This document shows, one piece after another, positions 3,201 to 28,282 of a DNA stretch of 35,093 nt. Below the pieces are notes generated by a model. That model did not search any database, was not told the DNA's origin, and was given only the letters and a program-made list of their open reading frames with translations. Made by a program: the position numbers and the translations under genes. The DNA is from Cycloclasticus sp. symbiont of Poecilosclerida sp. M (GTDB taxonomy: Bacteria > Pseudomonadota > Gammaproteobacteria > Methylococcales > Cycloclasticaceae). The stretch's first letter is position 1. The number at the start of each line of letters is the position of its first letter. The stretch spans positions 1 through 35,093 of the forward strand of contig LWTN01000229.1 of the NCBI GenBank assembly GCA_002101225.1, given 5' to 3'.

Positions 3201-4748
3201 TCGCCACCACCCCACCACGATATTTATTCTATTGAAGATTTAGCGCAGCTCATTTTTGATCTGAAACAAGTCAATCCAGATGCGCTCGTGTCGGTTAAAT
3301 TGGTATCAGAGGCGGGTGTAGGTACTATTGCCGCCGGTGTTGCTAAGTGCTATGCAGACTTAATCACAATTGCTGGATACGATGGCGGAACGGGCGCAAG
3401 CCCAATAACCTCTGTTCGCTATGCAGGCGCACCGTGGGAACTGGGCTTAACAGAAACACACCAGATTTTATTAGCGAACGATTTGCGTAGCAAAGTTCGT
3501 CTGCAAACAGACGGCGGGCTCAAAACAGGCCTAGACGTGATTAAAGCCGCTATTTTAGGGGCGGAAAGCTTTGGCTTTGGAACCGGACCGATGGTGGCGA
3601 TGGGTTGCCGATATTTACGTATTTGCCACCTGAATAATTGCGCGACGGGCGTTGCAACACAAGATAATTTATTACGCGAAAAGCACTATCACGGTGAAGT
3701 TGAGTATGTGATGAACTATTTCCGCTTCTTGGCCCAGGAAGTACGCGAGTGGCTAGCAAAATTAGGCTTTACAAAGCTGGAAGATATAATTGGTCGTACC
3801 GACCTGTTAGAACAAATTGCAGGCTCAACGGATAAACAACGAGGGTTGAATTTAACGCCACTCTTAGAATTAATACCCGGTAACGAATCAAAGACTCAGC
3901 ATTGTATTACGCCGCAAAACTTACCTTTCGATAAGGCCGAATTTGCAGAAAATATGGTTAAAGATGTTTTGCCGTCTATTGAAGCCAAATCAGCAGAAAT
4001 ATTTAGCTATGAAATTAAAAACGTAAACCGCTCGATCGGTGCGCGTTTGTCGGGTGAAATAGCCAAGCGTTACGGCAACCAAGGCATGGAAGATGCACCC
4101 ATTCAAATTAACTTCAAAGGCACTGCAGGGCAAAGTTTTGGGGTTTGGAATGCGGGTGGGCTTCATCTAACGATTGAGGGCGATGCAAACGATTACGTGG
4201 GCAAAGGTATGGCGGGTGGAAAGCTTGTATTAAGGGCCCCCTCGGGCAGCACCTTCGATAGCGATGCTACAACCATTATGGGTAATACCTGCTTGTATGG
4301 CGCAACGGGCGGTAAACTTTTTGCCTCGGGCCTCGCGGGGGAACGGTTCGCGGTTCGTAACTCGGGCGCACTAGCAGTGGTAGAAGGCGTTGGAGACCAC
4401 GGTTGTGAGTATATGACCGGCGGTGTCGTCGTCGTGCTGGGTGAAACAGGTATTAATTTTGGTGCGGGTATGACAGGTGGCTTCGCGCTGGTACTCGATG
4501 AATCACGACATTTTGTTGATCGTTATAATCACGAGTTAATCGAAATTCATCGGATTATGTCTGAGTCTACGGCAGAATATTGTAATTATTTACGTAAAAT
4601 TATTGAGCAGCACGTGGCCGAAACGAGCAGTAAAAAAGGCCAGCAAATACTCGATAATTTCGCTGACTATATCCATAGTTTTTGGCTTGCCTCACCTAAG
4701 GCGACAGACATAAAAACCCTACTTGATTCGTTAAGACAAGCGGCTTAA
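273..4748 (+). CDS. gltB: Glutamate synthase [NADPH] large subunit
   Basis: 1491 aa ORF with GTG start; class II amidotransferase N-terminus [11 protein letters not shown]/Fe-S glutamate synthase core ([28 protein letters not shown]) and GXGXG C-terminal domain. Confidence 0.98.
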
Positions 4749-7773: not shown

Positions 7774-10700
7774 TTATCTTAACTGACGCCATGATTGTCT
7801 TCCTGTGGGGCTACCAGAGGCCCTTTTTATCACGCCTAAACTACCACTACCACTAGTATACAGACACTCTGTGCGATCATCACAGACGAGCACACTTGGG
7901 GCTTTAATAATGCCGAGCCCATATTTTCTGATGCCGCTTATAGCAATATTGTCTAAGGCATCAATTTTACCGTCTCCATTAGTGTCGTATATATGGACAA
8001 GATCATTTAAGTCAATCGCGCCATCGTTATTGATATCGAAGGGTGAGGTGCTCAAACGGCTACCATTTACAGCATCTAATTCCATTAACCAACTGGAACC
8101 GCCTGAACCGCAAGGGTTTGAGCTAGGGATTAAGGTTACAACGATGAGACGGCCATTTCTGAGTAAAGGGACGCTGACGACGCGTTCGCCCTCTGGCCCA
8201 TTGGCAGTCGGGACGTTCAGATCCATATACCAACCATCTTTTTCAGAGTAGTTTACAGTGGTGTCGGAAGTGACTCGGATATCAATAGATAAAGCAGCCA
8301 TAGTCGCTTCAGATAAAATTTGTTGTTCTTGTAAACGAGAGCGGCTTGCAACGGGAGCACCTTGGTCTCTAATACCATAGAAAGTTTGTATTTGAGGATT
8401 GTCTCCGACGATTTGGTCATTGTTAGCATAGTATTTGCCAGTACCAAAATAGACCATTAAGCCGCCATCAGGGTGTCTTCCTACTTGCAGCTTGGCGGTG
8501 ATTGGTTGTGGAGTACTTAACGCATCAAGCGCCCTGTAGAGTGGTGCAGGATTCGAGTTTGTGCTATAGGCCACCCCCCAGGTATTTGAGGACCTGCCTG
8601 ATACATCAAATTTCCATAAGTTACCAAGCAAGTCACCGGCATAAATACTGTCGGTTACGCTATCTCCATCTTCATCAATAGCAATTGGGGTAGAGAGCCC
8701 GTTAGGATTTTCAGCGTTACCGACCCCGGTGTCTATGCTTTTTATGATATGCCCTGTTTGAATGTCTATAAGGTATAAAACGGCTTTATGGCTGGCGCTT
8801 TCATACCCATTTGCAACAACGGCAGCCCAGTTGCCATTGTGCATTTTAACGACAGAGGCTTGAGGCAGTGTATAGCCCAAATTATTGGAAAAGTCTGTTA
8901 AATCACTGCTTGGGCCAGGTGCTTGGGTAGTAGAAATCTCCCATAAAACATTACTGGCGGAGAAGCTTGAAGGCTTGGTAACGTCTAAGGCGAAAAGCCC
9001 CTTGCCACCAGCACCTAAGGTATTGACCATAACGGAATGCCACGCGCTGCCAAAGTAGGCGTCGCCAACAAGGGGGGATCCATCTACGCTGTACCTGTGA
9101 GGGATGCAGCCAGCATCCGCACAACCATAAAGGGGGTCGCTCAGAGTGCTTAACGAGGCAATGGTTGCGTCAGGTACATATGTAAATAGTTCGGAACCAG
9201 TTACTGCATTAATAGCGTGTAACATAGCATCATTGGCTGAGAAATACATGGCGGGCGTTCTGGAAAGTTTTGCCGTTAAATAAGCTGCATAGGTGGAGCC
9301 TTCGGGGCTGTCTAGTTGAGTGTAACCAAAGTCTCCAACCGTGCCCGCAAACCAAGGGTCGGAATTAATCACATCACCCAATAAAGAGGAGCGGTCTCTA
9401 AATGCCCCGCCATTTTGTTCTTCGGTGCTGGTATCGCCTCGAATGTAATCAGCCCTCGTTGCTCCTAAAGTGTCTGTTCCCCCTGATGAATCAGTGTTCA
9501 TTAGAGCTTGTTGGGAGGTGTTAAGGTTGGCGTACTCAAAGACAATGCCCGTAGAGCTGCCGCTTGTAGCGTCATAAGAAAATATTTTACGGCTATTTTC
9601 AGTAGGGATTAATGTTGCGGCATCCCAAGCTTGTGTGCCAATGCTACCGTCTGTGTTTAAGTCAAAAGCCAATAGTTGCCCTGTCCATGTGGCGCTATCA
9701 AAACGGGCTTGGTAGATTTTTGAATTGATGTTGAGCCGAGTAGCGTTAGCTGCTACCGATGTTGCGGAAGAGCTCCCTTCCTTAATAGTATAAAATGCTC
9801 GGCTAAGAGCAGAGACGAGCTTATCGGGTTCGGTGGCTAATACATAATTGTCTGGCACGCCGTCTGAGTCGGCATCCCATTCGGTTGTTGATGCTCCAGG
9901 CGACCCATTATTGGGGTCACCGTCAGCATTATCATCAATAAATCCGCCGTATTTACCCGCCAGCCACAGCATATTCGTTTGGCCCAATAATGGGTTGAGG
10001 CTATATTCTTGCGTATCTATCATAAAAGTAGAAATGGTTTGTTTTCCAGCAAAGTCAGTTGTTGCGCCCAAACGACCCGTCGCACCAGTACGGATATCTT
10101 GCGTATTGGCATAGTAAGCGAGTCCAGCAATATAATAAGAATTCTCTTTATCTCCGTTTGTAGGTGTACCGAAGACTTCGCCTAGCTTCGTGAGGGTTTT
10201 TTTAGTAACTGCTTTACCAGAATCACATTCTAGAGCAGTGCAACCGATAAACTGCTCGGTGCCGTTTAAGCCTTCTAAATCACCAACGGTATTGGTTAGG
10301 TTAGTTACATTAATGTCTAAGTCTGGCGTGCTTGGCGGCCGAAAGTCATCGAGGATATCTCTGCCATTAAACGTACGGGAAGTAAAATGAGTGCCTGGCA
10401 ATCTTTTGTCTTTCCATGGATTAGCATCGTTTATTGCTATAATAAAATTCTTTTGGCACTCGTATTGGATAGGGTCTTGCCATTGGTTCAGCCTTAAAAT
10501 AGGGAAGCCACCCTTATTACCGATTAAGTATTCACTTGTTGGCCCAAGGTTTTTGAAGTAACGAATAGATTCATAAAATAATTCCCCTGCAGGGTCGTTG
10601 GCTTTATAGCCAAAGTCACTAAATTTATTTAAATAGGTAATTACACCAGAGAGAGTAACACCGCTTGTCCTAGCATCGACGGGATTAGAGTTGGTGTTAA

Positions 10701-25110: not shown

Positions 25111-25135
25111 AACCAGCAATAAATTTGGATACATT

Positions 25136-25396
25136 ATGTTTTGTAAAAAATTAAAACGCGAGGCCGAGCCTTTAGAAAAAGCGCCTTACCCGGGTGAACT
25201 TGGAGAGCGGATTTTAGAAAATATTTCTAAAGAAGCGTGGGCTATGTGGTTGCAACAACAAACGATGTTGATTAACGAAAACAGGTTAACGCCTTTCGAG
25301 CCAAAAGCAAAAAAATTACTGAAGGAAGAAATGGAAAAGTTCTTATTTAGTGATGAAAGTAGTGCCCCAGAGGGGTACACACCGCCCGTTAAATGA
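25136..25396 (+). CDS. yggX: Probable Fe(2+)-trafficking protein YggX
   Basis: 86 aa; FCKKLKREAEPL...YPGELGERILENISKEAWAMWLQQQTMLINENRL; downstream of mutY. Confidence 0.96.
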   Translation: MFCKKLKREAEPLEKAPYPGELGERILENISKEAWAMWLQQQTMLINENRLTPFEPKAKKLLKEEMEKFLFSDESSAPEGYTPPVK

Positions 25397-25462
25397 TTGT
25401 TTAGTTAACTACCTTGACTAAAGACGTGTGCCACTGTCTAATACGCGTCCTCAACAAGCGTT

Positions 25463-25538
<76 letters not shown>

Positions 25539-26006: not shown

Positions 26007-26591
26007 ATGTATAGCTTAAGAAACTATGGATTAATAATTACGTTAGTATTTTTTACTGCGACCGCACAAGCCGATTGGGTGCTTGATGGTGAAAATTCAA
26101 GCTTGAATTTCGTGTCTGTTAAAAAGGACAAGATAGGGGAAGTAAATCATTTCAAAACGTTATCAGGTGAAATTACAAACGAAGGGAAAGCGAGCGTCAC
26201 TATTGACCTTGCGAGTGTAGAAACAAATATTGATGTTCGCAACGAGCGAATAAAAAACATTCTGTTGGAAGTTGATGCATATCCTAAGGCAAAAGTCATG
26301 CTGAAACTTGATGCAGCCCAATTGATGAGTTTGGCAATAGGTGAAAGGCGTGTAGTGCCCGTAAATTTAACGGTCTTGCTTCATGGGAAAAGAAAAGAAA
26401 TGATGTTTGATGTGATTGTTGTAGGATTAGTGGGTGGTTCTTTAATGGTGCTTTCTTTGCAGCCGATAATTTTGAACGCTTTCGACTTTGGGTTGGATGT
26501 CGGTATCTCTAAGCTAATAGAGATTACAAAATTGCCATCAATTGACTCAGCGGTACCAGTGACGTTTAACTTAGTGTTTAAAGCTAAGTAA
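26007..26591 (+). CDS. YceI family protein (secreted)
   Basis: Signal peptide then DWVLDGENSSLNFVSVKKDKIGEVNHFKTLSGEIT...SVETNIDVRNERI; GGGAG upstream of ATG 26007. Confidence 0.9.
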   Translation: MYSLRNYGLIITLVFFTATAQADWVLDGENSSLNFVSVKKDKIGEVNHFKTLSGEITNEGKASVTIDLASVETNIDVRNERIKNILLEVDAYPKAKVMLKLDAAQLMSLAIGERRVVPVNLTVLLHGKRKEMMFDVIVVGLVGGSLMVLSLQPIILNAFDFGLDVGISKLIEITKLPSIDSAVPVTFNLVFKAK

Positions 26592-26595
26592 CACG

Positions 26596-26744
26596 GTTGT
26601 GATTTGCGGATAGACCTTAGTCGGTTACACTAAATGATGGCATTCAAACATTCGGCGGACTGTTGTGATTTGCGGATAGACCTTAGTCGGTTACACTTAA
26701 AACGAGTGTGCAAATACAACGGACTATGTTGTGATTTGCGGATA
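26596..26744. CRISPR. Minimal orphan CRISPR-like array: 36-bp repeats at 26596-26631 and 26662-26697, truncated third repeat 26728-26744, two 30-bp spacers
   Basis: GTTGTGATTTGCGGATAGACCTTAGTCGGTTACACT occurs twice identically; its first 17 nt occur a third time. Period is exactly 66 bp; intervening 30-mers are unlike each other. Confidence 0.75.
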
Positions 26745-26822
26745 TAATTAAACGGGACGCTACCCTTTGTTTGAGAATCATGGGGTGAGTTCACAAATAA
26801 TTAGGTCAGAGTAAAATTAATC

Positions 26823-27521
26823 TAACTAGCTATGACGCCTTTGGCAACCTGATTGAGACCGAAGACAGCCAAGGCAATATTATCTACACCCGTTACGATG
26901 CACGAGGCCGCAAGGTCGGCATGGACGACCCGGATATGGGTCAGTGGAGCTATGCCTATAACGTACTCGGTCAACTGGTCAACCAGACCGACGCGAAAGG
27001 CCAAACCTCAAGCTTAGTCTATGATTTACTGGGGCGCCTGATCAGCCGTACTGAAAGTGAGGGGACGAGCACTTGGCAATACGATAGCGCCCAATGGTGT
27101 TGGCAAACTGCATTTAGAGAACGGCACCGCCGCAGACGCTAAAGAATACAGCTATGACAGCTTAGGGCGTAACAGCGAGGTGACCACCGCCATCGATGGC
27201 ACCCTGTATCACCTCACTACGACCTACGATGCCTACTCACGCGCCGATACGATCACCTATCCTATCAGCACCCAATACCCCACCGGCCTAGTGATCCAAA
27301 ACAGCTATACCGATGCGGCTACTGATGGCTCTGAGGGGTATTTAAAAGCGGTTACTAACCCCATAGTCTTTACCGTGTACTGGCGGGCGATGAGCCAAAA
27401 CGCCGCAGGCCAACTGACCGAGGTAAAATTGGGTAACGGCATCACCAGCCAATATTTTTACGACGCCCAGACCAATTTAATTGAAAGCATCACAAGCGCC
27501 ACCCCAGGCGGTACCGGCTTG
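26823..27521 (+). pseudogene. RHS/YD-repeat protein fragment, frameshifted near 27090 and truncated at both ends
   Basis: YD repeats SYDAFGNLIETEDSQGNIIYTRYDARGRKVGMDDPDMGQWSYAYNVLGQLVNQTDAKGQ / GRLISRTESEGTSTWQYD then, in another frame, GVGKLHLENGTAADAKEYSYDSLGRNSEVTTAIDG. Confidence 0.88.
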
Positions 27522-27893
27522 CATCTGCTTATCAGGTTCTGTTTCAAAGCGAATGCTCGCTGGGGGAACCACATTACCGCGCAATTAAACCAAGTGCTCA
27601 CGCACTCGTGTGATACCGCCGTCATACCCATGCTCTTTAATCTCTCGAACAATGACAACAGCACTTAAATGAATAGGCAACGCCGATTCAATACGCCCTT
27701 TAATATAGGGCTTATAAGGATTAAGCTTATGGGCAACGCCCGGCCTTGGTTGATAGCTTGGCTTATCAATATCTCTAGATAAATGCTTGTTAACGGTGTT
27801 AGGAGAGACGCCTAATTGCTTCGCAATAGCGCGCTTTGAATGGCCTTGTTTGTGTAATATTTTAATGGTCATGAGTTCCTCTATTGAAATCAT
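27522..27893 (-). pseudogene. IS21-family IstA transposase remnant (N-terminal part, truncated and frameshifted)
   Basis: MISIEELMTIKILHKQGHSKRAIAKQLGVSPNTVNKHLSRD...; continues in another frame as RFETEPDKQMQ before abutting RHS sequence. Confidence 0.85.
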
Positions 27894-27944
27894 GATGTTC
27901 CTGTTTATAAAAAGCATCAGTGTGAGTCATGTGGCTCACTTTTC

Positions 27945-28282
27945 AACCGTTAAGGATGAAGGTAATGCTTTAGAACGCATAGCAGCAAAGGACTGTAGCT
28001 TTCGCACCATTTCTTGACGGTCCCCGTCGCATCGAGAACCTGAGAGAAAAAAGCCCAGAAGGTGTTTTCTTTACTGAATAAGCGGCGCCGACTCTGCGCA
28101 CCCGATTGGGCGAGTTGTAAATGATGCTGAGGAATAAATGGTTCGAAGTATTCGCTTAACTGACTAAATGATTTTTGCTTTATTTGCGCTGCTTTATCCA
28201 GCAAAATTTGGCGTGATGAACGAGGAGTACGGCGCAGTGTTTGAAGGTGGAATCTGGGGAGATAAAGAGTCTTGTTTTTCAC
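27945..28282 (-). pseudogene. IS4-family transposase remnant (N-terminal part, frameshifted)
   Basis: RTPRSSRQILLDKAAQIKQKSFSQLSEYFEPFIP...FWAFFSQVLDATG; alternative frame continues RQEMVRKLQSFAAMRSKAL. Confidence 0.75.

Follow-up and report, generated by a model that had tools for sequence, protein, structure and literature searches.

A small CRISPR array broken mid-repeat behind a yceI-like gene in a Cycloclasticus symbiont, probably a stranded type II-C remnant

The window analysed here is a stretch of 35,093 nucleotides (contig LWTN01000229.1) from the draft genome of the Cycloclasticus sp. symbiont of Poecilosclerida sp. M, which is called G000 below. Genomes G400 and G408 belong to two other species of the same genus and G245 to another order. 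Behind a yceI-like gene the window carries a very short CRISPR array, which ends within its third repeat and is followed by mobile-element fragments. The features are as follows.

26007..26591, + strand: yceI-like gene (from its ATG), directly upstream of the array; named from the earlier note and orthologue context
26596..26631, + strand: CRISPR repeat 1, intact, 36 nt; an exact match, one base off the array repeat of G400 and G408 and the same as the repeats of contig L004
26632..26661, + strand: spacer 1, AAATGATGGCATTCAAACATTCGGCGGACT
26662..26697, + strand: CRISPR repeat 2, intact, 36 nt, the same as repeat 1
26698..26727, + strand: spacer 2, TAAAACGAGTGTGCAAATACAACGGACTAT
26728..26744, + strand: partial third repeat, its initial 17 nt identical and the sequence then diverging
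26744..26835, no strand assigned: array-breaking segment of about 93 bp with the AAACGGGACGCTACCC motif, 98% identical to G000:C233:2885-2977
27518..27951, - strand: IS21-family transposase fragment, 84% identical in nucleotides to L033:12176-12609; its IS21 profile match is below the cut-off

The repeat, GTTGTGATTTGCGGATAGACCTTAGTCGGTTACACT, occurs at 26596-26631 and 26662-26697, with 36 nt in each copy and 0 mismatches between them. None of 100 dinucleotide shuffles yielded any copy of it, even with up to 3 mismatches allowed, so chance is excluded for the pair. Both steps between the repeats measure 66 nt, and the two spacers, each 30 nt long, are dissimilar to one another. With near-identical repeats, regular spacing and unlike spacers of similar length, 26596-26744 is a genuine CRISPR array. 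An earlier note on this DNA had described these repeats with their 66-nt period, a third copy of 17 nt and the 30-nt spacers, and a recount found each of them in place. The 4-nt gap it had reported after the yceI stop is also there, the frame stopping at 26591 and repeat 1 starting at 26596. A tandem or dispersed repeat of another kind is excluded, since the repeat adjoins cas genes in relatives and the spacers are not shared.

On the left, congeneric yceI orthologues are 47-54% identical to the window's at the protein level and have other sequence downstream, with no repeat. The DNA at 25118-25537, upstream of yceI, matches the DNA adjoining yceI in congeners. Since the DNA upstream is conserved and congeneric yceI genes are free of the repeat, the array has been added to a gene neighbourhood that is itself conserved.

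Screening bacterial genomes for the 5'-terminal 21 nt of the repeat yielded two contigs, L003 and L004. The first, from a Thiotrichaceae MAG, has 27 repeats next to cas genes, namely the final part of cas1 and all of cas2, and the second (Gammaproteobacteria MAG RS_11_10, JAGLTQ010000148.1) has at least seven full copies of the identical 36-mer. Within the genus, G400 has an array of 12 repeats and G408 one of three repeats plus one decayed copy, all of the form GTTGTGATTTGCGGATAAACCTTAGTCGGTTACACT, one base from the window repeat. Both arrays adjoin a cas9-cas1-cas2 operon, complete with a predicted tracrRNA, and the operon's profile matches are all above cut-off (Cas9 TIGR01865, 646 bits; type II Cas1 TIGR03639, 295 bits; Cas2). 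The profile search saw no further cas gene in the operon, and cas9, cas1 and cas2 without a fourth gene are the II-C layout. The same layout is found in G245 (locus L022), with 41 repeats of the window repeat family by the cas genes. A related Cas9 also occurs in several order-mates whose genomes contain such repeats. The earlier note had left the choice open among type II, V and VI-B and had proposed looking for matching repeats next to cas genes; such repeats are present in G400, G408 and other gammaproteobacteria, and judged by the sequences of these loci the array type is settled as II-C. Types V and VI-B are ruled out, as the associated effector is Cas9 with a type II Cas1.

A predicted tracrRNA lies antisense and directly upstream of cas9 in G400, G408 and G245, as located by complementarity alignment with gaps. 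The positions are as follows.

L032:14514, + strand: predicted tracrRNA of G400
L033:5233, - strand: predicted tracrRNA of G408
L022:7269, + strand: predicted tracrRNA of G245

Each consists of a repeat-complementary stretch and hairpins, and then of a GC stem and T run that resemble a terminator. Pairing engages chiefly the 3' two thirds of the repeat; past a bulge it resumes at the 5' end. An anti-repeat query limited to a 16-nt core at the 5' end of the repeat missed the tracrRNA because pairing mostly involves the 3' part; the gapped alignment recovered it. As is characteristic of a type II-C array, the window repeat pairs with these predicted anti-repeats (tested against G400, G408 and G245). 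With the G408 anti-repeat it forms a nearly full-length duplex at -46.5 kcal/mol, compared with -13.6 (SD=2.8) for shuffled repeats, and the repeat of G408 itself pairs more weakly with the same anti-repeat (-40.1). That the G408 anti-repeat fits the window version suggests that the window retains an older form of the repeat. The 17-nt third repeat reaches -10.1 with the anti-repeat against -8.6 (SD=2.3) for shuffled sequence, no better than chance.

Type II-C arrays acquire new spacers at their last repeat, and every repeat has its own promoter (PMC12080349). Decayed repeats stand at the 5' end of the G245 and G408 arrays, in repeat sense, and cas2 at the 3' end, a polarity that fits the published scheme. 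With acquisition at the 3' (right) end, the window array has lost its growing end. The earlier note had read the array as what remains of a larger CRISPR locus, truncated and orphaned, partly because no leader fits on its left. The remnant reading stands, and the leader argument falls, since growth at the last repeat and repeat-borne promoters make a missing left leader uninformative; the leader side would be the right, which is the broken end. A scan for consensus promoters found no sigma-70-like site inside the window repeats, a result that speaks neither for nor against a promoter there.

At that right end the third repeat breaks off at the very point where a segment begins that recurs at G000:C233:2885-2977, next to a gene read by eye as Rhs-like, which bears out the earlier view that the right side is cut mid-repeat and followed by mobile debris. 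The AAACGGGACGCTACCC motif recurs around a gene on C243 (L071) resembling a REP-associated tyrosine transposase, below its family's curated cut-off. Rhs-like (by eye) and IS21 fragments lie beyond the break, and a relative of the IS21 fragment lies near the G408 CRISPR array. The right end was thus severed either by rearrangement or by an assembly misjoin, the latter being possible because the junction sits in repeated sequence. A misjoin would leave the absence of cas9 and tracrRNA unchanged.

That absence concerns the whole assembly, which comprises 2.32 Mb in 244 contigs and is listed as 99.99% complete. A search of G000 found no repeat copies besides the two full ones of the window. Neither a Cas9 profile nor congeneric protein queries found Cas9 in G000, and G400, G408 and others were positive in the same search; no tracrRNA was found by a search that recovers those of G400 and G408 at 1e-42 and 1e-53. 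Congeneric cas9, cas1 and cas2 likewise had no tblastn match in the window, while the control locus L022 was strongly matched, in agreement with the earlier report of no cas genes there. A complete type II-C system has cas9 and a tracrRNA in one genome, and the same searches that found this pair in congeners found neither in G000. The array had been thought potentially functional if an effector and a tracrRNA lay elsewhere in the genome; the searches found neither.

The spacers were compared with virome, phage and plasmid sequences, as proposed at the outset, and neither matched. For spacer 1 an exact 22-mer and 20-mer, and for spacer 2 an exact 22-mer and 19-mer, are absent from IMG/VR, and blastn against phages and plasmids gave no acceptable match for either. 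Among 18 congeneric genomes there is no second site for spacer 1 (up to 3 mismatches) or for spacer 2 (3-mismatch patterns).

Intact single copies of the window repeat family also exist without arrays, in phages and in chromosomes. One phage, represented by contigs L005 and L006 (100% identical over the 5 kb they share; terminase and head-tail genes), carries at L005:6658-6693 (L006:4413-4448, - strand) a single repeat that is exactly the Thiotrichaceae array repeat of L003; a small phage gene ends 2 nt before it. An unrelated phage, L121, with Erf-like, RecE-like and SSB genes, has one intact repeat at about 3313-3348 (- strand) that is exactly the G564-type array repeat and is followed by a strong predicted hairpin. 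Going by their anatomy, which matches that of Racr candidates, these phage repeats are candidate RNA anti-CRISPRs against type II-C Cas9. Racr candidates have been reported for almost all types, and those of I-C, I-E, I-F and V-A were tested (PMC10651486); a test of a type II-C Racr would be new as far as the text of that paper shows. Repeats near one another were clustered there as arrays or mini-arrays and excluded (PMC10651486).

Among chromosomal copies, G578 has a single 36-nt repeat between atpG and atpD (L026:1501-1536), 4 nt past the atpG stop; its genus-mates have no repeat there, and the aligned region measures 511 nt in G578 and 475 nt in genus-mate G505. Three species, G572, G494 and G488, share a solitary repeat at one chromosomal position ahead of a rhodanese-like gene (L037:4724-4759, L036:4115-4150 and, with three changes, L104 of G488), and it is not recognisable in G482. 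G353, in whose genome no Cas9 was found, has two solitary repeats in one orientation 4 kb apart (L021:5134-5169 and 9104-9139), flanking a RES/Xre toxin-antitoxin-like pair (antitoxin below the profile cut-off, toxin named by eye), and the sequence after the second repeat looks, by eye, like the tail of a tracrRNA. In G592 (L030:1350-1521) a solitary repeat following a cysH-like gene has a cas9 start fragment beside it, plainly what is left of a type II-C locus. The solitary chromosomal repeats were also considered as tracrRNA anti-repeats, a candidate dropped once the true tracrRNA was located.

The window array is very probably a stranded, inactive remnant of a type II-C (Cas9) array, consisting of two repeats, each with its spacer, and the initial 17 nt of another. 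We infer its type II-C ancestry, at or before its arrival here, as well as the loss of function and the order of events. In intact relatives each repeat would contain a promoter, following the published type II-C model, the tracrRNA would pair with the pre-crRNA, the duplex would be trimmed by host RNase III, and crRNA-guided Cas9 would cut matching DNA. In the window, the acquisition-side (3') end would have been lost on the joining of the Rhs/REP-associated segment, and no cas9 or tracrRNA is left in the assembled genome. With neither of these the array should be inert, and any transcript of it would remain so unless a mobile element supplied a compatible Cas9 and tracrRNA. Counting against the remnant reading, repeats 1 and 2 are the same and show no decay, which means that the loss was recent or the array has been kept for some use.

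Under an alternative that we consider improbable, the array is a functional orphan making crRNAs from repeat-borne promoters and served by Cas9 and tracrRNA from an unassembled contig or plasmid or from mobile elements. A plasmid or contig missing from the 244-contig draft could carry cas9, the genus has complete systems, and the intact repeats fit the congeneric tracrRNA almost perfectly and belong to a type in which repeats bear their own promoters (PMC12080349). However, cas9 and tracrRNA are missing from an assembly listed as nearly complete, in searches whose positive controls worked; the promoter scan of the repeats was empty; and the repeat of the last crRNA, cut to 17 nt, pairs like shuffled sequence.

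It is just as doubtful that the window array is one case of repeats of this family, single or few, being put in ectopically, in sense orientation just behind genes, with no decay of a local locus. The G578 region is exactly 36 nt longer than that of G505, the length of one repeat, with the insert 4 nt past a stop codon; other solitary repeats sit 2-59 nt from genes; and the window array itself lies 4 nt past yceI, which lacks an array in congeners. Against this, two spacers and a broken third repeat are what a piece of an ordinary array would show. Of the solitary chromosomal repeats, at least one (L030, by the cas9 start fragment) is left over from a decayed locus, and a second, at L021:9104, runs into tracrRNA-tail-like sequence. 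We know of no insertion mechanism for such repeats. A broader form of the idea, to which we give an equally slim chance, is that the window repeat family has been inserted recurrently by an unrecognised process, singly or as mini-arrays, in sense and a few bases past chromosomal or phage stop codons. One example of such a process would be repair of a Cas9 cut templated by the array, which would also destroy the PAM. If insertion is recurrent, the window array would be among its products and could make the 3' end of its upstream gene a guide, given Cas9 and tracrRNA.

It is highly improbable that the window array is a mini-array that a mobile element or phage uses as weapon or decoy against rival elements or Cas9 systems: mini-arrays and solitary repeat units are known on mobile elements (PMC10651486) and solitary repeats of this family occur on the phage contigs L005/L006 and L121, but chromosomal genes lie upstream (congeners have conserved the DNA ahead of yceI), IS21 and Rhs-like fragments lie downstream with no phage or plasmid genes seen, and the spacers match no known mobile element in IMG/VR, phages or plasmids.

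Read as a type II-C remnant, the array records the loss of a Cas9 system, with a recognisable scar, within a genus where some species keep theirs. Starting from the window repeat, the searches also uncovered related type II-C loci, and predicted tracrRNAs with them, in several gammaproteobacterial genomes.

Compared with known systems, the G400 and G408 loci share with the window a 36-nt repeat (one base different), 30-nt spacers and the 66-nt period, and their tracrRNA fits the window repeat; they differ in having their own cas9, cas1, cas2 and tracrRNA and in lying at other chromosomal sites, whereas only two spacers, and no such genes, are present in the window. The L004 array shares the identical 36-mer and the 66-nt period, and its 5'-most repeat is also truncated, with 13 nt remaining, but it holds at least seven full repeats and ends at the contig end; no cas genes were seen within the 8 kb examined, and it has no spacer in common with the window. 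Solitary repeat units and Racrs (PMC10651486) resemble the window in having a repeat without cas genes. A Racr is a single full repeat on a mobile element, without another copy within 100 bp; the window carries a chromosomal mini-array, with two full repeats and a partial one at 66-nt spacing and two spacers. With orphan CRISPR arrays in general the window shares an array without neighbouring cas genes, and it stands apart from them in being unusually small and broken mid-repeat by an identifiable segment.
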